From a virus, in IMG/VR virus record IMGVR_UViG_3300025418_001157, positions 1 to 29,499 of that record: 29,499 nucleotides of DNA; one strand, 5' to 3'. Of this stretch, positions 5,812 through 23,364 are shown piece by piece. The notes beneath the pieces are model-generated. The model worked only from the letters and a program-made list of their open reading frames with translations. It made no database searches and was not told the DNA's origin. Positions within the stretch are counted from its first letter, which is position 1. Each line of letters opens with the position of its first letter. The translations under genes were made by a program, and so were the position numbers.

Positions 5812-5812
5812 C

Positions 5813-6499: not shown

Positions 6500-6519
6500 G
6501 AATATTTTATTCTATTGGC

Positions 6520-6548
6520 TTGCAAAATCTAAATACAACCGTTATAAT
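6520..6548 (+). promoter_or_regulatory. Sigma70-type promoter for the sliding clamp gene
   Basis: TTGCAA at 6520-6525 and a perfect TATAAT at 6543-6548 are separated by 17 nt. The -10 box is followed after 7 nt by AGGAG (6556-6560), so the leader would again be very short. The block from TATAATAA through the ribosome binding site resembles the one before the gene at 1819. Confidence 0.65.
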
Positions 6549-6571
6549 AAACAACAGGAGAACATATACAC

Positions 6572-7294: not shown

Positions 7295-8844
7295 CGCAAG
7301 ACAATCTAACTGCCAAGCAAAGCGACTACGCTGTATTCTTGCCAGCCATCAGCGGTTTTTATGCTACTTTTGTGGGCAAACAACGTGCAGGAGCCTATGT
7401 AGACCCTGCTCGAATGCCAGCAGGAATACAAGACATGGAACAGATGAATTGGCTCAACAGCCAACAAGCATTGTTTCCCTATCGTTGGAGCCTGTATTCT
7501 GGTGGTCATGCCAACCTAGATCTTACCAAGTCAGATCCTTCAGAAGACATGGTGCGAGCCAGAGAGCCTGGCACACTCATGCTGGGAGATTCAGGTGGAT
7601 TCCAGATTGCCAAAGGCCTTTGGGAAGGCGACTGGAAAGCCAACTCGGGCTGTCCCAAAGCACAAAAGCGCAGAGAAGCAGTGTTAAAGTGGCTGGATGG
7701 TATTTGTGACTATGGCATGACACTAGATATTCCGACCTGGGTCATACATGATAAAAAAGCCGGCGAAGCCTGCGGAATCCGAACATTAAAACAAGCAGTA
7801 GAAGCTACCAAGTTCAACAACGAATACTGGATGAAACATCGTCGAGGTGTTGCTAATGGCGGCATGAAGATTCTCAATGTGTTGCAAGGTGCCAATCATG
7901 CCGATGCCGAACGTTGGTATCAAGACATGAAACAGTACTGCGATCCCTCAATCTATCCAGACACACATTTTAACGGTTGGTCAATGGGTGGTCAAAACAT
8001 GTGCGATGTGCATCTTGTGCTCAAACGACTGGTAGCATTGCGTCATGACAATTTGCTACAAACAGGCATACACGATTGGATGCACTTCTTGGGCACATCA
8101 AAGTTGGAATGGGCTGTGTTACTCACCGTGATTCAAAGAGCAGTTAGAAAGTATGTTAATCCAAACTTTACTATAAGCTTTGATTGTGCCAGCCCATTCC
8201 TTGCCACTGCCAATGGACAGGTGTATCATCATATTGATCTACCGCACAATGGCAAATGGAGTTATAGAATGAGCCCTATTGTAGATGATAAGAAGTATTC
8301 CACAGACACAAGAACATATCGTGATGCGGTGCTCCAAGATGGCTTGGTGAAACATTTTGATGAGTCGCCGATCAGTGCACAATTGCAAGTCAAAGATGTT
8401 TGTGTATACAAGCCCGGCGATCTAAACAAAAACGGCAAAGAAGGTAAAACAAGCTGGGACAGTTTTAGTTACATGCTGCTTATGGGGCACAATGTTTGGA
8501 CACATATAGAATCAGTTCAACGTGCCAACAGAGAGTTCGACACAGGAAACTATCCCAACATGTTGTGGTATGAAAATGGCGATCACTCGAAATTCCAAGA
8601 GATTGTGGATGCTATATTTGCCACACCCGATCGTACAGAATCAGAGTCTATCATTGAATACTACAGTAGATACTGGATGGACATCATTGGCACTCGCGGA
8701 TTCAAGGGCAAAAAAGCACTCAGCGGGCGTCCCATGTTTGATCAATTCTTTGAAATTGAAGAAACCAGTGTTGACTCAGAATCGGATGATAGTGTACAAT
8801 TAGACGAGTCAGCATTAGATCAACTGGAACAGGAACAAGAATGA
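7291..8844 (+). CDS. dpdA: DpdA/TGT-like DNA 7-deazaguanine transglycosylase
   Basis: This 517-residue protein belongs to the tRNA-guanine transglycosylase superfamily, as a divergent DNA-acting type. Visible motifs are D100-S-G-G-F-Q (substrate recognition in TGT), L-Q-G near 198-200, a G-W-S-M-G-G block near 229-234 (the G-L-S-V-G-E position), a F-L-G block near 266 (M-G-V-G position) and F-D298-C-A-S-P (the nucleophile Asp of the D-C-x-x-P-T block). The C-terminal zinc-binding Cys cluster of tRNA enzymes is not seen; the tail is acidic. DpdA proteins exchange guanine in DNA for preQ0 or related bases. The gene starts at a GTG in a GTGA overlap with the clamp gene. FolE, QueD and QueE are encoded 12-19 kb downstream. 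A tRNA or other target is less likely but not excluded. Confidence 0.8.
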   Translation: MTQDNLTAKQSDYAVFLPAISGFYATFVGKQRAGAYVDPARMPAGIQDMEQMNWLNSQQALFPYRWSLYSGGHANLDLTKSDPSEDMVRAREPGTLMLGDSGGFQIAKGLWEGDWKANSGCPKAQKRREAVLKWLDGICDYGMTLDIPTWVIHDKKAGEACGIRTLKQAVEATKFNNEYWMKHRRGVANGGMKILNVLQGANHADAERWYQDMKQYCDPSIYPDTHFNGWSMGGQNMCDVHLVLKRLVALRHDNLLQTGIHDWMHFLGTSKLEWAVLLTVIQRAVRKYVNPNFTISFDCASPFLATANGQVYHHIDLPHNGKWSYRMSPIVDDKKYSTDTRTYRDAVLQDGLVKHFDESPISAQLQVKDVCVYKPGDLNKNGKEGKTSWDSFSYMLLMGHNVWTHIESVQRANREFDTGNYPNMLWYENGDHSKFQEIVDAIFATPDRTESESIIEYYSRYWMDIIGTRGFKGKKALSGRPMFDQFFEIEETSVDSESDDSVQLDESALDQLEQEQE

Positions 8845-9772: not shown

Positions 9773-10035
9773 TGAGATGGATTAAAAGAAAACTAAGAAA
9801 CTGGGTCAACGACGATCAAGACATACTTGCTGTCAGTGAAACTGCTTCTCACAGTTTGGACAGTCGCGGGTTTAGACTGCAGGTCTGGAAAGCATCTGGT
9901 GGCATTGTAATTGAAACCAGTGCCTACGATGAACGCAAGGACCGTCACATGCAGGGCTTGCATGTGATCACCGAAGACAAAGATCTTGGCACAGAAATTA
10001 GCAAAATTATAACTTATGAGAGCTTGAAACTATGA
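9769..10035 (+). CDS. Small basic unknown protein, fourth gene of the DpdA chain
   Basis: This 88-residue protein starts at 9769, where ATGATG gives a second possible start three bases later; either keeps a close overlap with the previous gene. The first 14 residues are strongly basic and aromatic (M-M-R-W-I-K-R-K-L-R-N-W), which would suit nucleic acid binding. The rest has alternating strands with G-F-R-L-Q-V-W and G-I-V-I-E-T. No known family is recognised. The 3' end overlaps the T-fold-like gene by 4 nt. A DNA-binding accessory role in the modification is an inference from the basic N-terminus and the position. Confidence 0.7.
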   Translation: MMRWIKRKLRNWVNDDQDILAVSETASHSLDSRGFRLQVWKASGGIVIETSAYDERKDRHMQGLHVITEDKDLGTEISKIITYESLKL

Positions 10036-10475
10036 ACTTAGAACAAAGAGAGACCATTGACAGAATCAGTTCTGTGGCCGAAAGAAAAATTTGGGTCACA
10101 TTCCAAAAAGAAGGTGTGCATTGCTATCCAGCAGCCGCCACAGATCCACAACTGGCAACCGGAGATGAATATGATGTTTCGTTCCTTGGTACTCCTCACC
10201 GTCATATTTTTCATTTCAAGTTGCACATCGATGTATTCCACAACGACCGAGACATCGAGTTTATTCAGTTCAAACGCTGGTTGGAAAATCTCTACAAAGA
10301 TAGTATACTAGCACTAGACTACAAAAGTTGTGAGATGATTGCAGATGACCTATATATACAAATAGCCAGCAGATATCCCAATCGTGCTGTGTGGATCGAA
10401 GTCGCCGAAGATGGTGAGAATGGATGCTTGATCAAGTATGAAATTTCTCGTCCTAACTTATCTATTGCAATATAA
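10032..10475 (+). CDS. T-fold-like protein resembling QueD/QueF, last gene of the DpdA chain
   Basis: This 147-residue protein has features of the tunnelling fold shared by PTPS/QueD, FolE and QueF. An H56-R-H58 pair starts a strand, where QueD has HGH. It is followed by I-E-F-I-Q-F-K-R near residues 75-82, which sits where QueF and PTPS have E-x-K/F-x-x-L-K. Then comes S-C-E-M-I-A-D-D-L (99-107), like the T-A-E-N-L-A block with its substrate Glu, and finally W-I-E-V-A-E-D. A Cys31 lies in the N-terminal part. QueF reduces preQ0 and QueF-like enzymes add ammonia to it, so this gene could alter the deazaguanine further. It begins in an ATGA overlap. The fold is likely; the reaction is unknown. 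Confidence 0.55.
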   Translation: MNLEQRETIDRISSVAERKIWVTFQKEGVHCYPAAATDPQLATGDEYDVSFLGTPHRHIFHFKLHIDVFHNDRDIEFIQFKRWLENLYKDSILALDYKSCEMIADDLYIQIASRYPNRAVWIEVAEDGENGCLIKYEISRPNLSIAI

Positions 10476-11093
10476 ATGAATTTATTAATTTGTGGAGACA
10501 GTTTTGCTGCCGATTGGACAGTAAAATACTCTGGCAAAGGTTGGCCAAACATGTTGGCCGAGCAATATAATGTGACAAATTTGGCCCAGGCCGGATGTAG
10601 CGAATACAAGATACTCAAGCAATTAAAATCAGCTGACCTTGAGCAGTATGATCAAATTATTATAGCACATACCAGTCCATATAGAGTATATGTGCGACAT
10701 CATCCAGTACACCAACATGACCCTTTGCACAATAACTGTGATTTTATCTATGCAGATCTGGTTGAGCATGTGACTAATAATAAAGAACTCGGATCTATTG
10801 TTCACTATTTTGAAAACTATTTTGACACAGACTACGCAAAAGATATACATACTCTGCTATGCCAAGAAATTGAAAGATTTATTACCCCAGTGCAGGACCG
10901 AGTTATTTCTATTACCAATTTAGATTATAAAGGTTTGTATCAGTTCAAAAACATGATCAAATTTGATAATCTTTTTGCATCTAATAGAGGGCTGATGAAT
11001 CATTATGACGAAGCTGGCAATCTGAAAATATTTGAAATTTTATCAACTACCCTAAAAAGGAAACAAAATGGGTCAAAAACATCATACCCCTAA
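10476..11093 (+). CDS. Second SGNH-hydrolase-like protein
   Basis: This 205-residue protein opens with a strand into C-G-D-S-F (residues 6-10), the block I motif of SGNH/GDSL hydrolases. A second strand, Q-I-I-I-A-H-T-S-P (near residue 60), fits block III, where Asn or Gly is usual; I see no clear C-terminal D-x-x-H. It lacks a signal peptide. The ATG follows the preceding TAA directly. The last 26 nt overlap the next small gene. Phage SGNH proteins often act in carbohydrate deacylation. Here the downstream glycosyltransferase and epimerase make a sugar substrate plausible, but that is inference. It is shorter than and distinct from the SGNH-like gene at 196. Confidence 0.5.
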   Translation: MNLLICGDSFAADWTVKYSGKGWPNMLAEQYNVTNLAQAGCSEYKILKQLKSADLEQYDQIIIAHTSPYRVYVRHHPVHQHDPLHNNCDFIYADLVEHVTNNKELGSIVHYFENYFDTDYAKDIHTLLCQEIERFITPVQDRVISITNLDYKGLYQFKNMIKFDNLFASNRGLMNHYDEAGNLKIFEILSTTLKRKQNGSKTSYP

Positions 11094-11292
11094 TCCCCGA
11101 GTGCAAGCAATTTTTGAAGACCTCGAACAGTTTTTAGAATTCTGTCAAGACTACGGATATCGCTACAACGAGGGAGATCTTTATAACTTTAAAAGTTATG
11201 CTTGGCAACAGTTCAATAAATGGCACCAAGGCAAAAATGCCAAAAACATGTGGGCCGAAGATGGTCGTAGATTTGCAGGATATCGCACATGA
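11068..11292 (+). CDS. Small phage protein of unknown function
   Basis: This 74-residue protein has AAGGAAA at a good distance before the ATG at 11068, and its end overlaps the glycosyltransferase gene in an ATGA. Its start lies inside the SGNH-like gene (26-nt overlap, another frame). It is rich in aromatic and charged residues, with G-Y-R-Y-N-E-G-D-L-Y near the middle and a W-A-E-D-G-R-R-F-A-G end. No known domain is recognised. The overlaps and ribosome binding site support a real gene; the function is unknown. Confidence 0.65.
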   Translation: MGQKHHTPNPRVQAIFEDLEQFLEFCQDYGYRYNEGDLYNFKSYAWQQFNKWHQGKNAKNMWAEDGRRFAGYRT

Positions 11293-12491
11293 GAAAACTC
11301 TATTACATGGGGCTCGAAAGTTACGAGGCCCGTTATACATTACAACTGACAGAATGGAACCGTCGAGTGTTCAATCAGCGAGGACTAGATGTTGTATATG
11401 TTTCAGGTACCACCATTGACAACACACAGGCTATTTCTGTGGGTCAGGTGCTAGACGCACACGGTCGCAGTTATTTTAGCATGAGCCAGATGATGAACCT
11501 GGTTCAGCTAATGAAGAACGGAGAAGTCACCCATGAAGATGTTATCTACTTTGAAGACATGTTTCAACCTGGTATGGAATCGTTGCCTTATATTCTTGAT
11601 CAGGTACCAGCTGACCAACGCCCTCGTGTGTATGTGCGCTGTCTTGCTCAATCCATTGATCCTGACGATTTTGTACATGTTTGGAGTATGGCGCGATGGA
11701 TGGGCCTGTACGAACAAATGGTTAACGAATTTGTTACAGGAGTTCTCGCCACAAACGAAGAAATGGTTGCTCACATGCGCATTGCTGGATGGCGTGCTCC
11801 TATATACAATATTTCGGGCCTAGCATTTGGTAAATCTGAAGTGTTAGAGCGTATCGGAGGTGCAAATAATATTCAACCATTTGAAAATCGTGCCATGCGT
11901 GTGGGCTTTGCTGCAAGATTTGATCAAGAAAAGCAACCTGGATTCTTTATGGATCTCATTGAAATGTGGCATCAACAAGGTCCGTACCCAGTGGAGTTTG
12001 CTATCTATTCCGGTGGTCCGTTGCGTAGTAACAATCCTGAATACATTAATCGGGCTGACTCGTTGGCACATGAAGGTAAACTAAAAATCTATGATAATTT
12101 AAATAAAAATGATTACTATTCTTTGCTCAATGATACTAGGGTGCTCTTTAATTGCGCTCTTCAAGATTGGGTTTCCAACACAGTCAGTGAAGCAGATAGT
12201 CTTGGGTGTAACGTACTATACCCTGCTTATAGGTCTTTCCCTGAAACTTTTGCTAATGACCCTAACAGACTTTATGTTCCTTGGTCTATAGATGATGCGT
12301 ATATTAAATTAAATAATCTGTTACAACATCCACATCACAACATGGGCCTGATTTCAGACTGGAACAACGGTACCATTGACCGTGTGATTGATATCATGCA
12401 AGGCAAAGGCGAACAATGGAATCGCAGTGGCAATAGATACAGAGACCATGTGCCAGGAGACAAATATACTGTGGTAAAGATTGAATCATGA
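11289..12491 (+). CDS. GT-B type glycosyltransferase (GT4-like)
   Basis: This 400-residue protein looks like a two-domain GT-B glycosyltransferase. The C-terminal domain opens with a strand G-F-A-A-R-F-D near residue 209, the position of the nucleotide-sugar binding domain. Later a helix-rich part holds N-D-T-R-V-L-F-N-C-A (near 284) and S-N-T-V-S-E-A-D-S-L-G (near 301), like the E-x7-E region that binds the donor. The N-terminal half has several Tyr-rich strands. It moves a sugar from a nucleotide donor to an unknown acceptor, in the cytoplasm. Both ends overlap neighbours in ATGA. The next gene, a GalE-like epimerase, could make its donor. Phages use such enzymes on DNA or on surface glycans; which one is not visible. 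Confidence 0.65.
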   Translation: MRKLYYMGLESYEARYTLQLTEWNRRVFNQRGLDVVYVSGTTIDNTQAISVGQVLDAHGRSYFSMSQMMNLVQLMKNGEVTHEDVIYFEDMFQPGMESLPYILDQVPADQRPRVYVRCLAQSIDPDDFVHVWSMARWMGLYEQMVNEFVTGVLATNEEMVAHMRIAGWRAPIYNISGLAFGKSEVLERIGGANNIQPFENRAMRVGFAARFDQEKQPGFFMDLIEMWHQQGPYPVEFAIYSGGPLRSNNPEYINRADSLAHEGKLKIYDNLNKNDYYSLLNDTRVLFNCALQDWVSNTVSEADSLGCNVLYPAYRSFPETFANDPNRLYVPWSIDDAYIKLNNLLQHPHHNMGLISDWNNGTIDRVIDIMQGKGEQWNRSGNRYRDHVPGDKYTVVKIES

Positions 12492-13432
12492 TAGTAGCAG
12501 TTACAGGAGCTTCTGGTTATATTGGCGGACATGTAGCACTTAAATTAGCCGATGCCGGGCATTCGGTAGTAGGTATTGACCTTAGACCTTGCCCGTCTCA
12601 TCTGACCTGCTTTGAAAATTTTATCCAAGAAGATTTTGCCAGCGACACAGTGCTGAAATTTATCAGTAGTGGTAATATTGATGCCATTGTGCACTGTGCT
12701 GGTACCAGTCTTGTGGGTCCTAGTATGATAAATCCGCAAGAATACTATCATAACAACACAGTGAAGACCTTGACATTGCTGGATACTGTTGTAAAAAATT
12801 CTATTAGAACTAGAATTATTTTTAGTTCAAGTGCGGCGGTGTATGGAGTTCCTATCATGGTACCTTGTAGTGAAGTTGACCCTTGTGAACCTATTAGCCC
12901 TTATGGCGAAAGCAAATTGGCCATAGAATGGATTTTGCGTGGGTATCATCGAGCATATGGTCTTGACTACGTGGCATTTAGATATTTCAATGCAGCAGGA
13001 GCAGACTGTCAAGGACGACATGGCCAAGAACCCGGTGCTACACACATCATTGCTAGAGCATTAGAAAGCGTTAAAAATCAGATTGGGTTTGCATTGTATG
13101 GTAACAATTATGAAACTGCTGATGGTACCTGCATTCGTGACTATGTCCATGTGGAAGACATTGCTGATGCCCATGTTACAGCACTAGATCAGTCTGTACT
13201 TGTTGGAGTATATAATCTTGGAACCAATCAAGGTACCAGCAATTTAGAAGTTATACATCGTATTGCACAAGTAGTTGGAGTAAATATGGCAGTAGAATTA
13301 AAAGGCCGGCGAGAGGGAGATCCCTCTCAGCTCACTGCTGATTCAACAAAATTCCAGACCATGACCAACTGGAAACCGCAATTTGATCTGTCAGACATAA
13401 TAAAACATGCTTGGAACTGGTACTCCCGATAA
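12488..13432 (+). CDS. galE: UDP-glucose 4-epimerase-like SDR (GalE family)
   Basis: This 314-residue extended short-chain dehydrogenase has the NAD-binding G-A-S-G-Y-I-G at residues 7-13, an acidic D31 ending the second strand, S-S-S-A-A-V-Y-G at 113-120 with the catalytic Ser, and Y139-x3-K143. The F-R-Y-F-N-A-A-G-A block and the C-I-R-D-Y-V-H-V segment are typical of GalE. It interconverts UDP-glucose and UDP-galactose or their N-acetyl forms. The length (about 330 usual) is complete. It overlaps the glycosyltransferase gene by ATGA. With the UDP-glucose dehydrogenase-like gene at 27954 it suggests a nucleotide-sugar pool under phage control. Related decarboxylases or dehydratases are less likely. 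Confidence 0.85.
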   Translation: MIVAVTGASGYIGGHVALKLADAGHSVVGIDLRPCPSHLTCFENFIQEDFASDTVLKFISSGNIDAIVHCAGTSLVGPSMINPQEYYHNNTVKTLTLLDTVVKNSIRTRIIFSSSAAVYGVPIMVPCSEVDPCEPISPYGESKLAIEWILRGYHRAYGLDYVAFRYFNAAGADCQGRHGQEPGATHIIARALESVKNQIGFALYGNNYETADGTCIRDYVHVEDIADAHVTALDQSVLVGVYNLGTNQGTSNLEVIHRIAQVVGVNMAVELKGRREGDPSQLTADSTKFQTMTNWKPQFDLSDIIKHAWNWYSR

Positions 13433-13440
13433 GTAGTTTA

Positions 13441-15258
13441 ATGCTCAATGTTTATCTATTTCAGCCACAGTTCACTATGGATTTTAATTCAAAAATTCAA
13501 TATTGGATTCCGTACAGTGTAGGATGTATATGGAGTTACGCAGCACAATATGACTGGATATCCAACAATTTTGAATTAAAAGATTTAATTTTTTCTCGAG
13601 AAAAAATCTCCAAGCTAATTGATCGGTTGGACAATCCAGCAGTTTGCGGATTCAGTTGCTATTTGTGGAATGAAAAATATTGTTTAGCAGCTGCCCAAGC
13701 AATCAAATCTCGTTGGCCCAACTGCTTAATAATCTTTGGCGGCCCGCAAATTAATACTGATACGTTGAGCAACACATTTATAGATTGTATAATTATGGGC
13801 GAAGGAGAAAAAGCCTTTGTTGATATATGCAAAACCTTAATTGACGGTAGGGCAGTTGAACCCATGTATCTAGGACAACGCATGGAGTATCTAGAAATTC
13901 CTAGCCCATACACCACTGGAGTATTTGATAAAATAATAAAGCAAAATCCCACGGCAGTATGGCAAATGACCATGGAAACCAATCGAGGATGTCCTTATTC
14001 GTGTACATTTTGCGATTGGGGCAGTCTGACCTATAGCAAAGTCAAACAATTTACATTGGAAAAAGTAACTGCAGAAATTGAATGGGCGGCAAATAATCCT
14101 GTGACTTATTTTTATTGTGCTGATGCTAATTTTGGTATCTTTAAAGAGCGGGATACTGCCATTGCCAAAATCATGCGCGATAAACTGTATAATACCCAAG
14201 TGGAAACTATCAGTATACAATTTGCCAAGAACAGTAACGAAACAGTGATAGACATAGCCAAAATTATTGGTCCGTTAAACAAAGGACTTACTCTAAGCGT
14301 GCAAAGTCTGAATGATAAAACTTTGACCACTATTAAGCGTAAAAATTTAGCAAGCAATAATATAAAAGAAGTTTTAGCAATCAGTGCACAGAGTGATATT
14401 AAAACTTACAGCGAACTGATTCTTGGCATGCCCGACGAAACGCTGGAGTCTTGGCGTAATGGAATAACTGAACTGTTAGAAATAGGTCAACATCAAAGTA
14501 TCGAAGTATGGTTTTGTCAGTTGTTGAAAAATTCGGAGTTGGCTAGCCAGGACAGTCGAAAAACACACAAACTTGGCACAATATTGGTCAAAGATTACAT
14601 GGCCATGTACAACGATTGTGACGAAGAAATAACAGAATATGTTGAATTGGTCAATCAGACCGCAACCATGTCTACGCAGGAATTGATAGACTGTTATATG
14701 TACGCTTGGATGATCATACACTTCCACATATCAGGATATACCGAACTCACTGCTAAATCTGCTAGAGCAACTGGTATCAGTTATAGAAAATTTTACGATG
14801 CGTTGTATGATAAAATACCGCTTGATTCTGTGGTTGCGGAGCATTATCAACAATTAAAAAACTATGTGTCAGAATACTTGACCAGTGGAAAGACTTTTTA
14901 TAAAAATGGTCATGCTATACATTCTTACAGTTATAATTTCATGTATGACAATAAACAACAATTGTTTGAGCTGGGCAATCAAACCTATCTGGATCTAGTA
15001 GATTCGGCCACATCTGAATTGCTTATTTTGCAAAAGTCTTTTATATATGATCATACTGTAGATTATCCCCATATTATTTCTATCAATCTAGACTCCCAGA
15101 GTCTATTGCCCAGTGACACTGTGCATAGTTATAAAATTGATTCGCAATTTGATAGTTCTAAAGATCTGTATGCAGCTCGACGAAAAGGTCTGCTAAAAAA
15201 TTCTATTACACAATTGGGTGATATAAATATTTTTACCAATGCCACAATCCATGAATGA
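13441..15258 (+). CDS. B12-binding-type radical SAM enzyme
   Basis: With the ATG at 13441 this protein has 605 residues; a TTG at 13411 inside the epimerase gene is also in frame but less plausible. Residues 1-150 look like a cobalamin-binding Rossmann domain, with I-I-F-G-G-P-Q near 97 and M-G-E-G-E near 119. The B12 His motif is not clear. The radical SAM centre is C184-P-Y-S-C188-T-F-C191, the canonical C-x3-C-x2-C. The C-terminal 200 residues are specific to this protein. Such enzymes methylate, cyclise or rearrange unreactive carbons. The substrate is unknown, but oxygenase, aminotransferase and acyltransferase genes follow directly. It overlaps the next gene by 20 nt. Confidence 0.85.
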   Translation: MLNVYLFQPQFTMDFNSKIQYWIPYSVGCIWSYAAQYDWISNNFELKDLIFSREKISKLIDRLDNPAVCGFSCYLWNEKYCLAAAQAIKSRWPNCLIIFGGPQINTDTLSNTFIDCIIMGEGEKAFVDICKTLIDGRAVEPMYLGQRMEYLEIPSPYTTGVFDKIIKQNPTAVWQMTMETNRGCPYSCTFCDWGSLTYSKVKQFTLEKVTAEIEWAANNPVTYFYCADANFGIFKERDTAIAKIMRDKLYNTQVETISIQFAKNSNETVIDIAKIIGPLNKGLTLSVQSLNDKTLTTIKRKNLASNNIKEVLAISAQSDIKTYSELILGMPDETLESWRNGITELLEIGQHQSIEVWFCQLLKNSELASQDSRKTHKLGTILVKDYMAMYNDCDEEITEYVELVNQTATMSTQELIDCYMYAWMIIHFHISGYTELTAKSARATGISYRKFYDALYDKIPLDSVVAEHYQQLKNYVSEYLTSGKTFYKNGHAIHSYSYNFMYDNKQQLFELGNQTYLDLVDSATSELLILQKSFIYDHTVDYPHIISINLDSQSLLPSDTVHSYKIDSQFDSSKDLYAARRKGLLKNSITQLGDINIFTNATIHE

Positions 15259-16015
15259 TACACAAGATGTACACGAAAAACTTTATGTTTTTTTCAACAA
15301 TCTAATGCGAAAAATCAATCCCAGAGACTATTTTTGGGACTACAAGTCAGGAAATCCTGTGCCGCATATTGTACTGGATAATTTTTTGCCAGATGATATA
15401 TTTAAAATAGTGTCTCAAGAACCAAACAATATCCCGGAATATCTTTGGAATGACTTTACCAGAAATGGTAGTCACATGAAAGAATACAAGTCCATGATCA
15501 ATACACCTGTGTTGCACACATTGACCAATTGTTTTAATTCTGGAGTATTTGTTGACTGGTTAGAAAGACTAACTGATCATAAAAAACTAGTGCCAGACCC
15601 GCACTTGATTGGAGCAGGACTTTGTAAAACCTATAAAAATGCCAGTTTAAAACTGCACACCGATTTTAATTGGAACGACGAGCTGGCACTTAATCGACAA
15701 CTAAGTTTGATATTGTATATCAATCCTGTTTGGGAAGAGTCATGGAAAGGCAGTTTGGAATTCTGGGATTTTGACAAAAAACAAATCCTTCAATCTATAA
15801 TGCCACGACCCAATAGATTGTTGATATGGAATTACGATCCAAGATTGCTACATGGGTATCCGGCTCCATTGGAGTGCCCAGAAGATCAAGTGCGCATGAA
15901 TCTGCGTGTGTTTTATTTTCAAAGCGACGGGCAACCCAGAACAACGCCACATCGTAGCTTGTACTGGTGGGACGACAAACAAAAACAACCATTCGACGAC
16001 CGAACACATAAATGA
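15239..16015 (+). CDS. 2-oxoglutarate/Fe(II)-dependent oxygenase-like protein
   Basis: This 258-residue protein has the metal triad H140-x-D142 followed by H205, and an Arg (219 or 223) that would hold 2-oxoglutarate. The strand pattern around L-S-L-I-L-Y-I-N and L-L-I-W-N fits the double-stranded beta-helix. This is the prolyl-4-hydroxylase-like group, which hydroxylates proteins or small molecules. The start is the ATG at 15239 or one at 15251. It overlaps the radical SAM gene by 20 nt and the next by 4 nt (ATGA). A substrate is not visible. Many phages carry 2OG oxygenases that act on nucleotides, so a nucleotide-modifying role is possible. Confidence 0.75.
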   Translation: MPQSMNDTQDVHEKLYVFFNNLMRKINPRDYFWDYKSGNPVPHIVLDNFLPDDIFKIVSQEPNNIPEYLWNDFTRNGSHMKEYKSMINTPVLHTLTNCFNSGVFVDWLERLTDHKKLVPDPHLIGAGLCKTYKNASLKLHTDFNWNDELALNRQLSLILYINPVWEESWKGSLEFWDFDKKQILQSIMPRPNRLLIWNYDPRLLHGYPAPLECPEDQVRMNLRVFYFQSDGQPRTTPHRSLYWWDDKQKQPFDDRTHK

Positions 16016-16920
16016 ACAAAAATATTTTAGTAATGCCAGATAGAAAAAAACTGCCTTATGGTGGTGCTGAAGCAGTGGTCAATCCTGAATTTACCACCAT
16101 TGTTGACCAGATGGTCAACACTGCAATCAAAAACAACTGTTTGCAAAATTTATCAATTCAAGATAATTTTACCAGTCTCTACAAACAATGGATATTGTCA
16201 AGTAAACTTAACCAAATAATTGGCCTGGATCAGTTTGCCATTGGAGCTTACAGCAATGGCACATCTGAAAGTTTTGATAAATTTTATCTCAAACATCATA
16301 CACGTCGTTTTAGATGCCTGCGCGGTGAGTACATGTATCACATGGCGGCTTGGAAAAATTATTTCCCAGACTGGCAATACATCGACGACAAACCATTAGA
16401 ATCTAATGATGCAGTGGTAATAAGTTTTCCGTTTGCTAACACAGGCCAAGAGCACAATCGCACACAAGAAATTTTAAACACTTGTGCTCAATTAAACATT
16501 CCTGTATTAGTAGACTGTGCATACTTTGGCATATGTGGGGATATGACATTTGATTTTTCACATCCTGCCGTCACAGATGTTGTTTTTAGTATGAGTAAAT
16601 TTTTACCCGTACCGCATCTACGCATAGGGGTTCGTTATACCAAAACAGATGATGATGATAGTTTACTGGTCAATAACAAGACACTGTACACAAATAGATT
16701 GGGTGCAGCTGTAGGTGTAGAAATAATGAACTCATTCCACCCGGATCACATATATAACACATACAGATCTGCACAATTAAAACTGTGTAAAGAGTTGAGT
16801 ATCACTCCAAGTAAAAGTGTAATTTTTGGTCTGGACCATAATAATTTATATCCAGATTACAATCGCAACAGTACCTCAAACAACAGACTGTGTCTTGCCA
16901 AGTATCTGAACAATGATTAA
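16012..16920 (+). CDS. PLP-dependent aminotransferase-like protein (fold type I)
   Basis: This 302-residue protein has the key signature of class I/II aminotransferases: D168-C-A-Y171 in a strand (Asp binds the pyridine nitrogen, Tyr the phenol oxygen) and S-M-S-K196-F-L-P-V-P-H-L-R204-I-G (Schiff-base Lys and the phosphate-contacting Arg). A N-G-T-S-E-S block at residues 82-87 is the phosphate-binding loop. Length is below the family's usual 380-400, so the small domain is reduced or replaced. It starts in an ATGA overlap with the oxygenase gene. It may amino-transfer a keto intermediate made by the neighbouring enzymes. The substrate is unknown. Confidence 0.7.
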   Translation: MNKNILVMPDRKKLPYGGAEAVVNPEFTTIVDQMVNTAIKNNCLQNLSIQDNFTSLYKQWILSSKLNQIIGLDQFAIGAYSNGTSESFDKFYLKHHTRRFRCLRGEYMYHMAAWKNYFPDWQYIDDKPLESNDAVVISFPFANTGQEHNRTQEILNTCAQLNIPVLVDCAYFGICGDMTFDFSHPAVTDVVFSMSKFLPVPHLRIGVRYTKTDDDDSLLVNNKTLYTNRLGAAVGVEIMNSFHPDHIYNTYRSAQLKLCKELSITPSKSVIFGLDHNNLYPDYNRNSTSNNRLCLAKYLNND

Positions 16921-17434
16921 ACAACTAAAACTAAACTACGACATGTCTGTGTTTTTAAATGCAGATTATACTCAACACGAAGGTAGTTGTATCAAACATC
17001 AAGTTCACGAACTCACTGATATACATGAAAAATTTGGTGGATTTCCGGCCACATATACCTATCACAACACCTTGATACATCAACTATGGTGGGACAACAC
17101 ACAAATTGATTTTGATGAAATAGGTCGCCAGATGTGTATGGAGATTGTGACCGTGAGTAGTATTAAACAACCACCTGGATGCGTGATACCATGGCACAGA
17201 GACACCTTCTTCAAGATCAACTCAATGTATCCCACACGAACTGAAACCAAAGTTCGTGCCAACGTGCATTTGGAAGACTGGAAGCTGGGTCATTTTATAC
17301 AGTACGAAGACAATGTGTTTACCCATTGGTGCGCTGGAGACACACTGTTGTGGGACAGTGAAATTTTACATCTGGGCGCCAATGCAGGCATGCAAGACAA
17401 ATACACGCTGCAGGTATCTGGATTTTTGCTATGA
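16913..17434 (+). CDS. Second 2OG-Fe(II) oxygenase-like / cupin-fold protein
   Basis: This 173-residue protein has an H95-x-D97 motif (P-W-H-R-D-T) and a distal H153 (I-L-H-L-G-A), the 2-His-1-Asp iron site of 2OG oxygenases or Asp/Asn hydroxylase-like proteins. An N-V-H-L-E-D-W block lies between. It overlaps the aminotransferase gene by 8 nt and the next gene by 4 nt. The start is the ATG at 16913, with another ATG at 16943. It is small and lacks a clear 2OG-binding Arg, so a cupin-type enzyme is an alternative. Together with the first oxygenase it would make two oxidation steps in one pathway. Confidence 0.6.
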   Translation: MIKQLKLNYDMSVFLNADYTQHEGSCIKHQVHELTDIHEKFGGFPATYTYHNTLIHQLWWDNTQIDFDEIGRQMCMEIVTVSSIKQPPGCVIPWHRDTFFKINSMYPTRTETKVRANVHLEDWKLGHFIQYEDNVFTHWCAGDTLLWDSEILHLGANAGMQDKYTLQVSGFLL

Positions 17435-18075
17435 ATGTCAAATTAACATATCAATTGTTACACGATAACAATATGACTTTGTGTTTTATTGGTAAATCAT
17501 TTACAAATTCGCTGTTGCTGAATTATTTTGCCAATCACAGATCAGTTGTGCAATACAGTTTTGAAGAACTGTTGACAAAAGATCAAACTTGGTTTGATTC
17601 ACACCAATTTATTGTTACTGCAGCCAATATACCATTTAAGAAAATGGTAATAGAAGGACTAGCATCGTTCAGCCCCAGTTATTTTAGTGTGATAGCTGAT
17701 CATAATCATATTGGCTTTGATGTCACCATTGGACGCGGTGTGGTTGTTGATGATTTCAATGTGTTGTGTGACGGCACAATAATTGGTAATTATACCACAA
17801 TCTCTCATCATTGTGCATTGACTCATGGAGTTGTAGTTGGTGATTTTTGTCATGTGGGGCCATTCGCACAGTTTTTGTATGCCACGATAGGCAACGGATC
17901 CTATATGGCAGCACGAACCAGTGTGGTTGGCTCGCGAGATGCCCCCACTAAAACTGTAGATTATTGTAATTTTATTATAGGATCAACTGTGACTAAAAAT
18001 ATAGTCAGCACTGGCACTTACTATGGTAACAGATGCATTGACCAGGCTGGCAGTCTGACCAAGAAGATCGACTGA
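17431..18075 (+). CDS. Left-handed beta-helix acyltransferase (NeuD/PglD-like)
   Basis: This 214-residue protein has an N-terminal nucleotide-binding-like domain (residues 1-85), followed by hexapeptide repeats of the [LIV]-G-x4 type. Visible repeats include I-G-F-D-V-T-I-G-R-G, T-I-I-G-N-Y-T-T-I, V-V-G-D-F-C-H-V-G and T-I-G-N-G-S-Y. This layout matches sugar O- or N-acetyltransferases such as NeuD and PglD, which use acetyl-CoA. A His in the helix (S-H-H-C) could be catalytic. It starts in an ATGA overlap. Its 3' end overlaps the convergent acyl-CoA ligase by 93 nt. It closes the plus-strand biosynthetic run and probably caps or protects an amino group made by the aminotransferase, by inference. 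Confidence 0.75.
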   Translation: MNVKLTYQLLHDNNMTLCFIGKSFTNSLLLNYFANHRSVVQYSFEELLTKDQTWFDSHQFIVTAANIPFKKMVIEGLASFSPSYFSVIADHNHIGFDVTIGRGVVVDDFNVLCDGTIIGNYTTISHHCALTHGVVVGDFCHVGPFAQFLYATIGNGSYMAARTSVVGSRDAPTKTVDYCNFIIGSTVTKNIVSTGTYYGNRCIDQAGSLTKKID

Positions 18076-19506
18076 TTTTCTATTTTTTTTGTTAGTCACT
18101 GTTTCTGGCAGTACCGACGCAATAGTAATTTTTTTTGGTATTTGATGCGTCATTAACCTGGATACTAGCCAACTATTGAATTCGTTTAGATCAAATTGAT
18201 CAGTGGGTACAATACAAGCACACACTTCAGCAACACCTTTCAAGTTGATGCCACGATATATCATGACTTGATCCACTGTAAAATTCTGCAAGATCACTGC
18301 TTCTATCTCAATTGGATTGACCACCAGGTCGTTGACTTTAAACACATCGTCCACTCGCCCGTCGAACACAAGATTTCCTTGTTCGTTCCAGTGTGCACGG
18401 TCTCCTGTGCGTACCCAGCCATTGACAAATGTTTGACTGGTTTTTTCTGGATCTCTGTAGTATCCAACTGCTGCAGCTGGACTGCAAACATAAATTTCAT
18501 GATCGCGAATTTGTATTTTGCAACCTGGCAACGGTTTACCAATTGTTCCAGGTTGATGTTCCCAGTCCGGGTTGGCTGCATAATTGGAAGCAGTCTCCAT
18601 CATACCAATGCAACAGTTCAGCTTGAGTCCAAAACGCGATAGAAATTTATCATATAGTGCACGAGGAAGATCCTCGCCACTGCTGTGAAAATGCTGGATA
18701 CTGTCAGGCAAGGAGAATTTGTCTGCTGGCTTGCCTACTAGTTTTCTAATTATGCTAGGAGATGTTACCACAATAGTGGGTCTGTACTGATTTATATACT
18801 GGAATATCACAGACACAATCGGAGCTTCTGGCATTAGTATGGCAGTAGCACCTAACCCTGTGACATAGGTAATACTGTTGTGCAGGCCAAAATTCCAGGA
18901 CAGTTTAGGTATGCTTAGAATCACACTGTGCTCTGTCATTCCGTAACTGGTTTTTGGACTTATTGACAACATAGCAAATAGCGTTTGATGTCTATGCATA
19001 GCTACCTTGGGCAAGCCGGTTGACCCGCTGCTGACATGCATAAATGCCACAAAGTCACTGTCAGGCAAGTAACAGTCCACCGTGCCATCAAACTCTGTGT
19101 AGAAATTTACCAAATTGTCACGAGTGATCACAGGCACAAGATTATTAGATGGGTTTTTAAAATTGTTACCAGCTAGTATAGTTTTACACCCAACAAAATC
19201 AGCTAATTGATAAAATAAATGCGATCCAAGCGCATGGCTCAATGGTGTGGGTACTATGCCTGCATAAAGACAACCCAAAAACACGCACGGCCAGTCCACA
19301 CAATCCTCCATGCAGATAATCACATGGTCCCCTGGAGCCAGTCCACTGGCCAACAGTCCTTGCGCAATTCTTGGAATTCTATCTATTAGATCTCTATAGC
19401 TTAAATCTTGTGTGCCATCTCGAAAGGCCAATTTATCAGGATGTCGTTTATTGTGTTGTATTACATAATGAGCAAAATTGAGATCAGTTTTGAATTTCTT
19501 TGGCAT
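17983..19506 (-). CDS. AMP-forming acyl-CoA ligase (benzoate-CoA-ligase-like)
   Basis: This 507-residue protein is on the minus strand. The ANL adenylation signature S-S-G-S-T-G-L-P-K is at residues 159-167. A G-M-M-E-T block is near 301, and R-T-G-D-R followed by G-R-V-D-D is in the A7-A8 region. A Lys-rich V-T-N-K-K-N-R-K close to the C-terminus supplies the catalytic Lys. It adenylates a carboxylic acid and passes it to CoA or another thiol; the general pattern is that of benzoate/4-hydroxybenzoate ligases. Its ATG overlaps the end of the upstream binding-protein gene by 23 nt, without its own ribosome binding site, so it is coupled to it. The 3' end overlaps the convergent acyltransferase by 93 nt. 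The acid is unknown. Confidence 0.85.
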   Translation of the reverse strand: MPKKFKTDLNFAHYVIQHNKRHPDKLAFRDGTQDLSYRDLIDRIPRIAQGLLASGLAPGDHVIICMEDCVDWPCVFLGCLYAGIVPTPLSHALGSHLFYQLADFVGCKTILAGNNFKNPSNNLVPVITRDNLVNFYTEFDGTVDCYLPDSDFVAFMHVSSGSTGLPKVAMHRHQTLFAMLSISPKTSYGMTEHSVILSIPKLSWNFGLHNSITYVTGLGATAILMPEAPIVSVIFQYINQYRPTIVVTSPSIIRKLVGKPADKFSLPDSIQHFHSSGEDLPRALYDKFLSRFGLKLNCCIGMMETASNYAANPDWEHQPGTIGKPLPGCKIQIRDHEIYVCSPAAAVGYYRDPEKTSQTFVNGWVRTGDRAHWNEQGNLVFDGRVDDVFKVNDLVVNPIEIEAVILQNFTVDQVMIYRGINLKGVAEVCACIVPTDQFDLNEFNSWLVSRLMTHQIPKKITIASVLPETVTNKKNRKSVDLLGQTASLVNASVTIVSASADYIFSHS

Positions 19507-20413
19507 AGATTTTGCGATAGTTTAATAAAGTACCAATGCTTTTATCATAATGTGATCTGACTGCTTGAGCGGAAAATGGTTGACTCACAAAATCGCCAGA
19601 TTTAAAAAGATCTTCTTGACCTATAGTCTTGGTCGATAGTGCAAATATTTGTGCAATTTCGTTGCGTTTTTCTTCGGGCATTTTGACAGACGCCACTGTG
19701 AATTGCCAAATATAGGGCCCATTTAATTTTTGTTCTTTCAAAGTTTTGACCATGGGAAAATCACCATGTCGCGTGGCACAGTTTATTCCTAGTGCCTGCA
19801 GATGTGAATTATTTTTATTGGCTAAATTTTGATAATTTACCAATCGATCCATCACAAAGTTTATGCCGTCACCAGCTGCCATGCCCACCATAGCGTCATA
19901 ATTGGATTTGTACACAATGTATCTTACGGGAATCTGATACTGACGTCCTACTTCTAGTGCAACAAGATGTGCAGCACCTCCAATTGCAGGGCCGCCAACA
20001 ACCAATTCTTTGATATTTTCTTTTCTAATACTTTCTAATCCAGAATCACTGTTTCCAAAATTAGTTACCACTGCCCAGCAGGCATCACCGTGACTGAACA
20101 CTGGCACAATATCATTTAAATTTACAAAACCACGGTCCACACTCTCAATCACACTGTTGGTAATGGTAGCAATACGTTCGGCGGGATTTTCCAACATATA
20201 CCTAATACCAATGCTTTCAAAGCCTCCAGTTTTGAACTCTAGTACAAATTTATATTTTGATTGAACAGAATTGGCTGTATCCACAATTTTAAAAATTTGA
20301 GGCGTCATGCTTTGGCTAGGGCCTTGTGCATTCACCACAGTGATTATTTCTTGTGCATAGCCTGTTGTTGCAGCTAACCATAACACCACTGCGTATAATA
20401 AACGTTTTATCAT
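19484..20413 (-). CDS. Periplasmic substrate-binding protein of the TctC/Bug type
   Basis: This 309-residue protein is on the minus strand. Residues 1-20 are a signal peptide (basic start, hydrophobic core, G-Y-A before Q21), so it is exported to the periplasm. The mature part has a two-lobe pattern with V-V-G-G-P-A-I-G-G-A-A-H-L (near residue 140) and Y-K-S-N-Y-D (near 169), which match the G-x-G-G-x-x-H-L and Y-K-G regions of tripartite tricarboxylate transporter TctC/Bug proteins that bind organic acids. Membrane partners TctA and TctB are absent here. An AGGAG site sits just before its ATG; I found no clear promoter upstream. It is unusual in a phage and may alter host uptake. The family match is by pattern. 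Confidence 0.65.
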   Translation of the reverse strand: MIKRLLYAVVLWLAATTGYAQEIITVVNAQGPSQSMTPQIFKIVDTANSVQSKYKFVLEFKTGGFESIGIRYMLENPAERIATITNSVIESVDRGFVNLNDIVPVFSHGDACWAVVTNFGNSDSGLESIRKENIKELVVGGPAIGGAAHLVALEVGRQYQIPVRYIVYKSNYDAMVGMAAGDGINFVMDRLVNYQNLANKNNSHLQALGINCATRHGDFPMVKTLKEQKLNGPYIWQFTVASVKMPEEKRNEIAQIFALSTKTIGQEDLFKSGDFVSQPFSAQAVRSHYDKSIGTLLNYRKIYAKEIQN

Positions 20414-20518: not shown

Positions 20519-21265
20519 TTGACAAACAAACAAGAAACAGCATTAGATGCAATGGCCGGAGACGGTGGCTATCAAGAATCTACATTGGCAGATACTATTC
20601 GTTTTAGAATGAAGCGAGATGGCAAGAGATTCTGGGCTAACGATAATATTAGCGAATACTTGTCTGATATCTATCGCAAAAAACTAATAGACGAAGCAAC
20701 TGAGGCATTTGAACAAGTGCTGAAGACCTTGCTGATTGACACAGAAACAGATCCTAGTAGTAAAGGTACTGCCCGGCGATTGGCAAAAATGTATATTAAT
20801 GAGGTAATGAGTGGAAGATATGAACCAGCCCCGGACGCAACAGCGTTTCCAAATGACTCGGAGGACCGTTACGAAGGTATGTTGGTTGTCCGTAGTGAGC
20901 TTCGTAGCATGTGTAGCCATCATCACCAACCTGTGGCTGGTGTGGCTTATATTGGTATTATTGCTGCCAGTAAACTTATTGGTTTATCCAAGTATTCCAG
21001 AATCGCCCAGTGGTGCGCCAGACGAGGTACTCTCCAGGAGGAACTTTGTAATGACATTGCTAAAGAAATAGGCAAGGCCACAGGCGCAGATGACATCGGT
21101 GTATACATGCAGATGACACACGGATGTTGTGAAAATCGAGGTATTATGGCACATTCAAGTTTGACTCAGACCACGGTGCTAAAAGGGTCATTTAAATCAG
21201 ACCTAGGCACCAAAAAAGAGTTCTTTGATAACATCAAACTACAACAAGAATTTGCGCCCAGATAA
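20519..21265 (+). CDS. folE: GTP cyclohydrolase I (FolE)
   Basis: FolE makes 7,8-dihydroneopterin triphosphate from GTP, the first step to both folate and preQ0. This 248-residue protein has the zinc and active-site block M-C132-S-H-H-H near 131-136, and a second Cys pair in H201-G-C-C-E-N-R-G, where the usual motif has one Cys with H-x-C-M-x-x-R-G. The K-L-I-G-L-S-K block before Y159 also fits FolE. The start is a TTG with GGAGA 6 nt upstream. With QueD and QueE it forms most of a preQ0 pathway. The N-terminal 75 residues are phage-like. I saw no sign of truncation. Confidence 0.95.
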   Translation: MTNKQETALDAMAGDGGYQESTLADTIRFRMKRDGKRFWANDNISEYLSDIYRKKLIDEATEAFEQVLKTLLIDTETDPSSKGTARRLAKMYINEVMSGRYEPAPDATAFPNDSEDRYEGMLVVRSELRSMCSHHHQPVAGVAYIGIIAASKLIGLSKYSRIAQWCARRGTLQEELCNDIAKEIGKATGADDIGVYMQMTHGCCENRGIMAHSSLTQTTVLKGSFKSDLGTKKEFFDNIKLQQEFAPR

Positions 21266-21270
21266 CTAGG

Positions 21271-21299
21271 TTGACGCAAAAAGAATTCTATTGTATAAT
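21271..21299 (+). promoter_or_regulatory. Sigma70-type promoter for the secreted protease gene
   Basis: TTGACG at 21271-21276 and a perfect TATAAT at 21294-21299 are separated by 17 nt. A TTG inside this promoter opens an in-frame extension of the protease frame, but the promoter and the GGAG at 21322 show that the true start is the GTG at 21331. Confidence 0.75.
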
Positions 21300-21330
21300 A
21301 GAATTATCACAATTTTATTTTGGAGATTCT

Positions 21331-23364
21331 GTGAAAAAACTTATATTAGCAGTACTTGTCTTGTATTCTGGACTGAGTGCATCTCAAACAAACACCGCAT
21401 ACAATAGTCCGTACGTGGGCACTCCCAGCCTGGTATTCAGTACCAATCCTGCTGTCTGGGCCGCGTTGCCGCAGGCACAAAACAACAGTGACCTGATCAT
21501 TGGTGCCAATTATGCCTGGAGTCGAGGCTGGACTGGCCGAGGTAGTACTATCCTAATCATGGACACCGGTATTGATCTTGCAAATCCTGCGTTTTCGGCT
21601 CCGGGAAAAATCATAGCCTCAAAAGATTTCTCTGGCACAACCATGCAAGACAACAACGGACACGGATCCAATGTGGCTGGGATTGCGGCAGGTGCTTATA
21701 ACAGTACTGGTGTCATGGGTGTGGCCTTTGATGCCAACTTGGCCATTGCCAAACTTTCAAACACAGGCAGTGTGACTAGTGGTACTGCGCTGACAGCACT
21801 AAAGTGGGCCAATACATTACCAGTCAGCGACAACATTGTGGTGGCCAACTTCAGTGCCAACACTGGATATAGCACAGCTTATACTGCAGGAGTTTTTAAA
21901 TTGTCCACGCCTGGCATGTACGCCAGCAACGACAAAATTTATGGCGGCGCAAACTACTACAATGGTGAAACGCCACAGAGCTGGGCCGCGGCGCTGAATC
22001 CCCGAATGGTACTGACCATCAGTGCTGGTAATTCTGGACTGCCTTATGTACAAAACCCAGCCACTTTTGCCAATGCCACTGATGCCAAGGGCAATCTTGT
22101 GCTAAATGGACAGATGCTGGTCGTAGGCGACTGGAATGCAGGCCTTCAACGAGTGGAAGGCAACACCGCCGGTACAGTGTGTAAAACGGTAGTGAATGGT
22201 GTGTGTCAAGATCTTTACCGAACGTCTGATTTTTATATCTTGGCACCAGGGGCCGCAGTGAATGGACCAGTGCCTACATCGGTCAACAAATCTGGTTATC
22301 AAAGTATGTCAGGTACCAGTCAGGCCGCTCCAGCAGTGGCAGGAGCAGTGGCCATTATTAGCCAGCTATGGCCCTACATGACAGCAGCCAACGAAGTGCA
22401 GTTGTTGTTAAAAACTGCCAACAAAAATATTCCCAACTATGATGTCAACATAGACGGACAGGGTCTGCTGGATCTCAACCGAGCCACACAACCCCTGGGC
22501 AATCTTGCAATCAGTCTCACAGGTCGCACGGGAACAGTGATGCCAGTGAGTGGTGTTTTGGCCGTGAGTAAAGAATCAGCCAACACAGTCATGCGTTTGA
22601 GTTCAGTCAGCGTGGTGGACAGTACTAAAAGAGACTTTACTGTGAACTTGAATCCAGCGGTGGCCTCTAATACCATGCTACAAAGTTCTGTGATGTTGGA
22701 TGCAGATCCAGGCTCAAACTGGAGCGGTCGTTGGACAGGATTGATGGCCGGTCAAAACTTACAAATGCCTATATCTGGTGGTCAAACTGAAAAAGAAAAT
22801 ACTCTTACCATTGACAGTAGATTGCTCGACCCTGATGCTAAACTGTCACATCAATGGACTATGACCAACAGTCAATACAATCCGTTTGTGTATTTTAATG
22901 GCATGTTTGGTCAAAGTAAAAATTCAACCACTGTGGAATACAGCCAACTATATAGGCCTGGAGAACGAGAAGGTCGTTACGGATTGCCACAAGGTTTTTG
23001 GGCACAAGGTGGGGTTATGACCACGGTGATGAATTATGATACCAGCATGGTCACTCATGTAACGCCAGTGGTGGCAGTGCATGCCATGGCCGGTTATCAG
23101 CTGCATGACTGGAACTTTTTTGCAGGAATCAAGCCTGTGGTGGCCTGGGGCCAAATGAGCATCACTGCTCCTAGCAATGTAGACGCTGCTGGAAACATGA
23201 GTTATGCATCTGTTCGTAACAATCTAGCAGGTGGAGATGTAATTACCTATGCAGGTGTGAAATATCAACACAACATCGGCAAAGAACAAATTGTGGGATT
23301 CAGAAGCATGTTTGGCAGTGATGGCAGCCACGGTGCAAGAGTTTATTATTCAGTGTTCTTTTAA
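21331..23364 (+). CDS. Secreted subtilisin-like (S8) serine protease, autotransporter-like
   Basis: With the GTG start at 21331 and GGAG at 21322, this protein has 677 residues. Residues 1-17 are a signal peptide (K-K, hydrophobic core, then S-A-S). The S8 triad is D78 (M-D-T-G), H111 (N-G-H-G-S) and S330 (M-S-G-T-S-Q-A-A-P). The last 250 residues alternate polar and hydrophobic with many Gly and Tyr and end in V-Y-Y-S-V-F-F, with a terminal aromatic residue, as in outer-membrane beta-barrel autotransporters. That would place the protease on the cell surface or release it. It is rare for a phage genome. The barrel is inferred from composition and the C-terminus. Confidence 0.8.
   Translation: MKKLILAVLVLYSGLSASQTNTAYNSPYVGTPSLVFSTNPAVWAALPQAQNNSDLIIGANYAWSRGWTGRGSTILIMDTGIDLANPAFSAPGKIIASKDFSGTTMQDNNGHGSNVAGIAAGAYNSTGVMGVAFDANLAIAKLSNTGSVTSGTALTALKWANTLPVSDNIVVANFSANTGYSTAYTAGVFKLSTPGMYASNDKIYGGANYYNGETPQSWAAALNPRMVLTISAGNSGLPYVQNPATFANATDAKGNLVLNGQMLVVGDWNAGLQRVEGNTAGTVCKTVVNGVCQDLYRTSDFYILAPGAAVNGPVPTSVNKSGYQSMSGTSQAAPAVAGAVAIISQLWPYMTAANEVQLLLKTANKNIPNYDVNIDGQGLLDLNRATQPLGNLAISLTGRTGTVMPVSGVLAVSKESANTVMRLSSVSVVDSTKRDFTVNLNPAVASNTMLQSSVMLDADPGSNWSGRWTGLMAGQNLQMPISGGQTEKENTLTIDSRLLDPDAKLSHQWTMTNSQYNPFVYFNGMFGQSKNSTTVEYSQLYRPGEREGRYGLPQGFWAQGGVMTTVMNYDTSMVTHVTPVVAVHAMAGYQLHDWNFFAGIKPVVAWGQMSITAPSNVDAAGNMSYASVRNNLAGGDVITYAGVKYQHNIGKEQIVGFRSMFGSDGSHGARVYYSVFF

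Follow-up and report, generated by a model that had tools for sequence, protein, structure and literature searches.

The described systems closest to the locus analysed here are those of phages 9g, CAjan, Rosebush and Vibrio nt-1, in which FolE, QueD and QueE are encoded in one locus with DpdA, an enzyme with the fold of the tRNA-guanine transglycosylases (TGT), and the DNA of Vibrio phage nt-1 contains dPreQ0 (PMC6884629). A second kind of DNA modification is found in T4-like phages, in which hydroxymethylcytosine is glycosylated, with glucose in T4 and arabinose in RB69 (PMC6024577). We analysed a 29.5-kb virus record (IMG/VR IMGVR_UViG_3300025418_001157, positions 1 to 29,499), a fragment referred to below as the window, and in particular a run of seven enzyme genes at 11289-18075 that opens with a glycosyltransferase (GT) gene and has a DpdA-type gene 2.4 kb upstream. 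On balance, we favour the reading that this run is a sugar-tailoring cassette, variable in content, within a phage locus for 7-deazaguanine modification of DNA, and that the sugar is attached to the deazaguanine in DNA. That the cassette is functionally part of the DpdA locus we hold with considerably more confidence. The genes that frame the cassette are the following:

7291-8844, + strand: predicted DpdA-type (DNA) guanine transglycosylase with a TGT fold, 517 amino acids (aa); predicted structure and profile match
10032-10475, + strand: g147, a small protein that accompanies DpdA and GT, with a faint QueD/PTPS resemblance
11289-12491, + strand: predicted GT-B, GT4-like retaining glycosyltransferase, 400 aa, the core gene of the locus; predicted fold and locus linkage
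20519-21265, + strand: folE, GTP cyclohydrolase I (PF01227, 4.2e-37)
23844-24341, + strand: queD, 6-carboxytetrahydropterin synthase (PF01242, 1.5e-14)
26112-26981, + strand: queE, 7-carboxy-7-deazaguanine synthase-like (46% identical to the annotated QueE of Synechococcus phage BUCT-ZZ01; Radical_SAM match weak, E 0.0068)

The DpdA-type protein has no match in Pfam, and neither its profile nor that of the GT finds a significant match in the PDB by sequence; the fold assignments of both therefore rest on predicted structures. For the AlphaFold2 model of the DpdA-type protein (pLDDT 87.4), the first 27 Foldseek matches are all tRNA-guanine transglycosylases (best E 1.5e-7), and TGTs occupy all 50 rows of the VIA-align result (Z up to 20.2). 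Its profile also matches DpdA2 of the phage nt-1 type (E 6e-8, probability 94.7). The protein carries the signatures GDSGGFQI and FDCASP, and D100 (in DSGGFQ) and D298 (in FDCASP), which we take to correspond to the catalytic aspartate pair of TGT, are both invariant in 25 relatives. Relatives of the protein also occur in PA5oct, close to QueE, and in Vibrio phage 2.275.O, where the neighbours are FolE and queuosine-pathway genes. FolE, QueD and QueE are all encoded with DpdA in the window and, judged by sequence matches and the modelled fold, the locus belongs with the 7-deazaguanine DNA-modification loci established chemically in other phages (PMC6884629). The longest queD open reading frame (ORF) opens at 23646; the relatives begin near 23844 and are 87-90% identical from about residue 69. 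In the phage QueE proteins (26112-26981 in the window, and relatives), CNFxC is followed some 40 residues on by TGCDSYxSW, in place of a compact CxxxCxxC.

The GT is weakly recognised by sequence, with only generic Glyco_trans_1_4 and Glyco_trans_1_2 matches in Pfam (E 0.002). Its AlphaFold2 model (pLDDT 83.3) has an unambiguous GT-B fold of the GT4 kind, with a best Foldseek match to BshA (6.3e-12) and a VIA Z of 24.8. More than 590 relatives are among the matches listed in IMG/VR, and the locus is very common in freshwater and marine phages.

The gene neighbourhoods were compared in the best 80 loci per search, drawn largely from related phages; genes in these loci (numbered with the prefix L) are mechanical ORFs, labelled with profiles built for this analysis. 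In two 80-locus sets, DpdA is found upstream of GT in 64 of 64 and 72 of 72 loci with enough contig, and folE downstream of it in 50 of 51 and 42 of 45. Because the phages of these loci are related, two further linkage tests were run. The isolated cyanophage BUCT-ZZ01, which belongs to a different lineage, encodes the GT (67% identity) in the order queE-PRT-queD-folE-GTb-DpdA2-g147-GT; its DpdA is of a different subfamily from that of the window, and the other backbone genes of the window have no match in the 41-kb stretch of this phage. Of the 79 loci recovered by seeding with a short DegT aminotransferase alone, 78 have a que gene, and DpdA and GT occur together in all 43 that were eligible. 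The genes are also held together in rearranged loci (L049/L063, L272, L312). The linkage of the cassette to the locus is well supported.

The interval between GT and folE is a variable, swappable cassette, whose usual form is GalE plus the short DegT aminotransferase. A GalE-type short-chain dehydrogenase/reductase (SDR) is present in 68 of 70 such intervals and the DegT enzyme in 64 of 70, where labels such as 'galE' and 'AT200' span whole families. Additions in other phages include 2-oxoglutarate (2OG) oxygenases, radical S-adenosylmethionine (SAM)/SPASM enzymes, UDP-sugar dehydrogenase-like genes and StrB1-type amidinotransferases. The version in the window is rarer. Alongside GalE it has a TokK-like B12 radical SAM methylase, a pair of 2OG oxygenases, an aminotransferase of class I and a VioB/NeuD-like acyltransferase, with two inverted genes beyond them:

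12488-13432, + strand: GalE, UDP-glucose 4-epimerase, 314 aa (318.9 bits to TIGR01179, above the curated cut-off of 262.3; PDB UDP-glucose 4-epimerase, 5.6e-69)
13441-15258, + strand: B12-dependent radical SAM C-methylase, TokK/CysS-like, 605 aa (Pfam B12-binding and Radical_SAM, both above cut-offs)
15239-16015, + strand: 2OG-Fe(II) oxygenase 1 (OG1), 258 aa (PF13640, 2OG-FeII_Oxy_3, E 1.1e-12, above cut-off)
16012-16920, + strand: short class-I/II pyridoxal-phosphate aminotransferase, 302 aa (PF00155, Aminotran_1_2, 26.7 bits, cut-off 19.7)
16913-17434, + strand: 2OG oxygenase-like protein 2 (OG2), 173 aa (conserved motif P93-x-H95-x-D97 ... H153)
17431-18075, + strand: hexapeptide-repeat acyltransferase, NeuD/VioB-like, 214 aa (Hexapep 41.2 bits, above cut-off; NeuD_NnaD 2e-13; PDB VioB 1.1e-5)
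17983-19506, - strand: AMP-forming acyl-CoA ligase, benzoate-CoA-ligase-like (benz_CoA_lig 2.8e-72; PDB benzoate-CoA ligase 1.4e-62)
19484-20413, - strand: TctC-type periplasmic solute-binding protein (PF03401, 5.6e-5, 23.2 bits, below the gathering score of 27)

With the GT, the first six of these form the run of seven intact ORFs, all on the + strand. Its junctions are, in order, a 4-nt overlap, an 8-nt gap and overlaps of 20, 4, 8 and 4 nt. A first-pass annotation, made from the letters alone, had placed seven enzymes in one direction at 11289-18075, overlapping everywhere except between the epimerase and radical SAM genes, and the ORF coordinates confirm this. Chance is ruled out as the origin of the run because there are relatives in the same locus at 31-81% identity and because much of the window recurs at ~100% identity in another IMG/VR contig; a megablast search against phage records found no near-identical isolate.

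The closest cassettes have the order GT-galE-AT-OG1-hexapep-folE (L419, L420 and L423). In others (L102/L432, L443 and L444), genes for a transporter and for an AMP-forming ligase adjoin that of the acyltransferase, the transporter being an MFS protein in L102/L432, and in L443 by sequence resemblance, and a TctC-type binding protein in L444. The ligase of the window overlaps the 3' end of the acyltransferase by 93 nt. We count the ligase and the binding protein (17983-20413) as part of the cassette since an identically placed, likewise inverted pair occurs in L444, where a 30% identical binding-protein gene adjoins the ligase. L102 encodes a PF08421/PF08484-type C-methyltransferase, known from nucleoside diphosphate (NDP)-sugar pathways, in the interval that holds the radical SAM C-methylase in the window, and this equivalence supports a C-methylated sugar. 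A StrB1-type inosamine-phosphate amidinotransferase (L490:14799-15860, phmmer 1.1e-94 to PDB 1bwd) is often encoded beside a class-I aminotransferase and could possibly place a guanidino group on the sugar or base.

The best solved relatives of the radical SAM enzyme are TokK (2.1e-68) and CysS (5.5e-34), both of which methylate an unactivated carbon (PMC9692996, PMC12846815). An N-terminal B12-binding domain precedes a radical SAM domain with the CxxxCxxC motif, the layout of class B enzymes, and the motif is present in 119 of 119 phage relatives. The curated score of the KedN5 family (NF033712) is not reached (167.5 against 700). A TTG at 13411 would lengthen the ORF, but the alignments of all relatives begin at residue 11, which makes the ATG at 13441 the probable start codon. 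A quick tree places most phage members in a group distinct from the bacterial ones. At least two distinct clades of the family have been recruited to que loci, the second between GT2 and queE. This second subtype (~660 aa), found between GT2 and queE or between queD and GT2, often occupies the position that a class-I methyltransferase has in other loci (among others in L099, L113, L120, L127, L128, L134, L148, L149, L151, L156 and L165). One or two tandem B12 radical SAM genes also occur among head genes, beside capsid and portal-type genes, in phages with a T4-like arrangement (L029-L036, L042, L047, L050, L055 and L062), and these form a clade of their own. A match in MT835514 (24.6%) was set aside, as its neighbourhood reads as bacterial genes.

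The remaining enzymes keep their characteristic residues. H140-x-D142, H205 and R219/R223 of OG1 are retained in L102 and L132. D168 and S-x-S-K196 ... R204 of the aminotransferase are retained in 15 relatives, and its profile has no match in the PDB. OG2 has no Pfam match above cut-off; it is called a putative oxygenase from its HxD...H motif, which is kept across 77 relatives; a 67% identical gene adjoins the radical SAM gene in L003/L004. The acyltransferase scores below the curated TIGR03570 (NeuD/PglD/VioB) cut-off (50.4 against 160.8) and is thus related to these enzymes, not a member by that model.

Together, these genes suggest a pathway in which FolE, QueD and QueE would make a 7-deazaguanine base, either 7-carboxy-7-deazaguanine or, if the host QueC is used, preQ0, and the DpdA-type enzyme would exchange it for guanine in phage DNA. 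GalE would supply a UDP-galactose-type sugar donor, and the sugar may be aminated by the aminotransferase, oxidised by both 2OG oxygenases and C-methylated by the B12 radical SAM enzyme, before or after its attachment. The binding protein may help to import a carboxylic acid that the benzoate-CoA-ligase-like enzyme would activate; the acid is perhaps aromatic, because the ligase is close to benzoate-CoA ligase. The hexapeptide acyltransferase would then cap the amino group with the activated acid, and the GT-B enzyme would join the sugar to the 7-deazaguanine in DNA. A likely benefit would be DNA shielded from host nucleases, with each change of cassette changing the sugar. It is probable that the DNA of these viruses is coated with elaborate sugars; that the product has exactly the structure proposed here is rather doubtful.

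Several observations weigh against a sugar on deazaguanine in DNA. The GT matches no DNA glucosyltransferase family in Pfam or PHROGs, and the nearest enzymes of solved structure use small molecules, lipids, proteins and glycans as substrates. The 136 of 136 loci that join DpdA and GT are not 136 independent events, as they come mostly from related phages. The radical SAM family has no que genes nearby in 46 of 81 loci, and the class-I aminotransferase in 29 of 79. Three larger contigs of this kind (L045, L490 and L488) have DpdA elsewhere, others being fragments with no match, and que or DpdA genes are within reach in the other 35 of the 81 radical SAM loci. Finally, no convincing QueC was found in the window, itself a fragment, or in relatives of 331-353 kb, which leaves the base uncertain between 7-carboxy-7-deazaguanine and preQ0 made by way of the host QueC; in a PF06508 search, 3 of 13 records had partial matches, only one of them above cut-off, possibly NadE-like.

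In the main rival reading, the cassette and GT would build a surface glycan, on the host envelope or a virion protein, and would merely occupy an insertion hotspot beside the que genes. The radical SAM family does occur in phage clusters that have no que genes, the set of aminotransferase, OG2 and radical SAM genes is also found away from them, and 41 of 80 bacterial loci of the same family have NDP-sugar epimerase-like genes close by, a count given with no background rate. However, the GT and the DegT aminotransferase are nearly exclusive to the que locus, including after rearrangement and in the other phage lineage, and no polymerase, flippase or tail gene was seen among the window genes. 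We regard a surface glycan as unlikely, if a serious competitor.

The first-pass annotation had also considered a small antibiotic-like molecule, and a free product of this kind, antibiotic-like or signalling, released during infection, would fit the TokK-like radical SAM enzyme, 2OG oxygenases, CoA ligase and acyltransferase, all typical of natural-product tailoring. We consider it very improbable, as the annotated window genes include none for a scaffold, carrier, assembly line, export or self-resistance, and cassette content varies between phages while DpdA, GT and folE persist. Slighter still is the prospect that the GT glycosylates a pterin or deazaguanine intermediate from FolE and QueD, both encoded in the locus, and not DNA, in the manner of the cyanobacterial tetrahydrobiopterin glucosyltransferase. 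The structural neighbours of the GT model do include such UDP-glucose:tetrahydrobiopterin glucosyltransferases (Z ~22.6-22.9), but these match no better than dozens of other GT4 enzymes, which makes this a generic fold match, and DpdA, which points to a DNA base, is present wherever the contig is long enough. Least probable of all is that the sugar genes serve another modification of the same DNA, for instance of a pyrimidine, and that DpdA works separately from them: the window does encode a cytidine/deoxycytidylate deaminase-like protein (1021-1671) and hydroxymethylcytosine sugars are known in T4-like phages (PMC6024577), but no pyrimidine hydroxymethylase or thymidylate synthase was seen in the window and the linkage is to the que genes.

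Attachment to deazaguanine in DNA remains the reading we prefer, and it changes how the run was first understood. The coordinated pathway of B12 radical methylation, oxidation, amination and acyl capping stands, and the amino sugar and the modified nucleotide, proposed as alternatives, are both supported and now joined in one reading. The run is not free-standing: the DpdA-type gene, folE, queD, queE, the CoA ligase and the binding protein had been overlooked. The first-pass annotation would have been abandoned had the genes been scattered and unlinked in related phages; their content varies, and the linkage to the same locus holds. Its remark that no phage pathway with this set had been described agrees with the open-access PMC literature, the scope of our searches (subscription papers and preprints fall outside it), in which we also found no report of glycosylated 7-deazaguanine DNA.

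More broadly, we tentatively propose that in one group of aquatic phages, very common and including contigs of 330-350 kb, guanine is replaced by a glycosylated 7-deazaguanine. Its sugar would be diversified by exchangeable cassettes that aminate, C-methylate by radical chemistry, amidinate and acylate it; in the window, the acid would be imported and then activated by a benzoate-type CoA ligase. If so, hundreds of environmental phage contigs would share one modular system that merges two known DNA disguises, base replacement and glycosylation, and a family of unknown DNA bases, differing between phages, would be predicted. Such a system would account for phages that encode a TokK-like B12 methylase, oxygenases and even amidinotransferases of the StrB1 type, and its enzymes would be a source for DNA glycosylation. 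A direct test would be possible in the cultured phage BUCT-ZZ01, which was isolated on Synechococcus elongatus PCC 7942.

Several neighbouring genes accompany the locus. The small protein g147 lies between DpdA and GT in BUCT-ZZ01 as well; that it is a QueD paralogue was not upheld (hhalign probability only 20%, E 0.001), and its HRH...H pattern, faintly PTPS-like, is kept as a lead. Just upstream of GT is one further small gene:

11068-11292, + strand: g74, small conserved gene, 67% identical in L002, overlapping GT by 4 nt

Two GDSL/SGNH-like hydrolase genes (196-999 and 10476-11093) have weak Pfam matches below the cut-offs. An S8 subtilase is encoded at 21271-23364, and S8-labelled proteins, which often match only its C-terminal part, lie between folE and HIT in many related loci. 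Between queD and queE, a second glycosyltransferase-like gene (24506-25339, PHROG match) and a SAM methyltransferase gene (25336-26115) are conserved in many loci and may share in the same modification. In Stenotrophomonas phage Moby (L329), an annotated inositol-3-phosphate synthase (5505-6755) lies between folE and queC/dpdA2.

Compared with known systems, the window shares with the phage DpdA loci the que genes and a TGT-fold DpdA; it differs in a divergent DpdA subfamily that Pfam does not match, in that QueC was not found, and in a built-in GT and sugar-tailoring cassette, glycosyltransferases going unmentioned in the 2019 paper on those phages (PMC6884629). With T4-like phages it would share the strategy of a GT-B enzyme that decorates the phage's own DNA, and the GT-B fold is indeed common to the T4-type AGT and BGT and the window GT, which does not belong to the DNA glucosyltransferase family by sequence; here the base would be a deazaguanine and not a pyrimidine, the GT resembles GT4 retaining enzymes, and the cassette that would tailor the sugar changes between phages. 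Galactosyl- and mannosyl-queuosine in animal tRNA carry a sugar on a 7-deazaguanine base, whereas the acceptor proposed here is DNA and no cyclopentenediol is expected. The domain layout and CxxxCxxC motif of the radical SAM enzyme are common to the C-methylases TokK, KedN5 and CysS, with the phage clade separate from its bacterial relatives. Finally, an SDR, an aminotransferase and a NeuD/VioB-like hexapeptide acyltransferase in one run recall the VioA/VioB and PglE/PglD-type pairs; in the window, however, the SDR is a GalE 4-epimerase and not a 4,6-dehydratase, the aminotransferase is of class I, and the benzoate-type CoA ligase suggests a cap other than acetyl.

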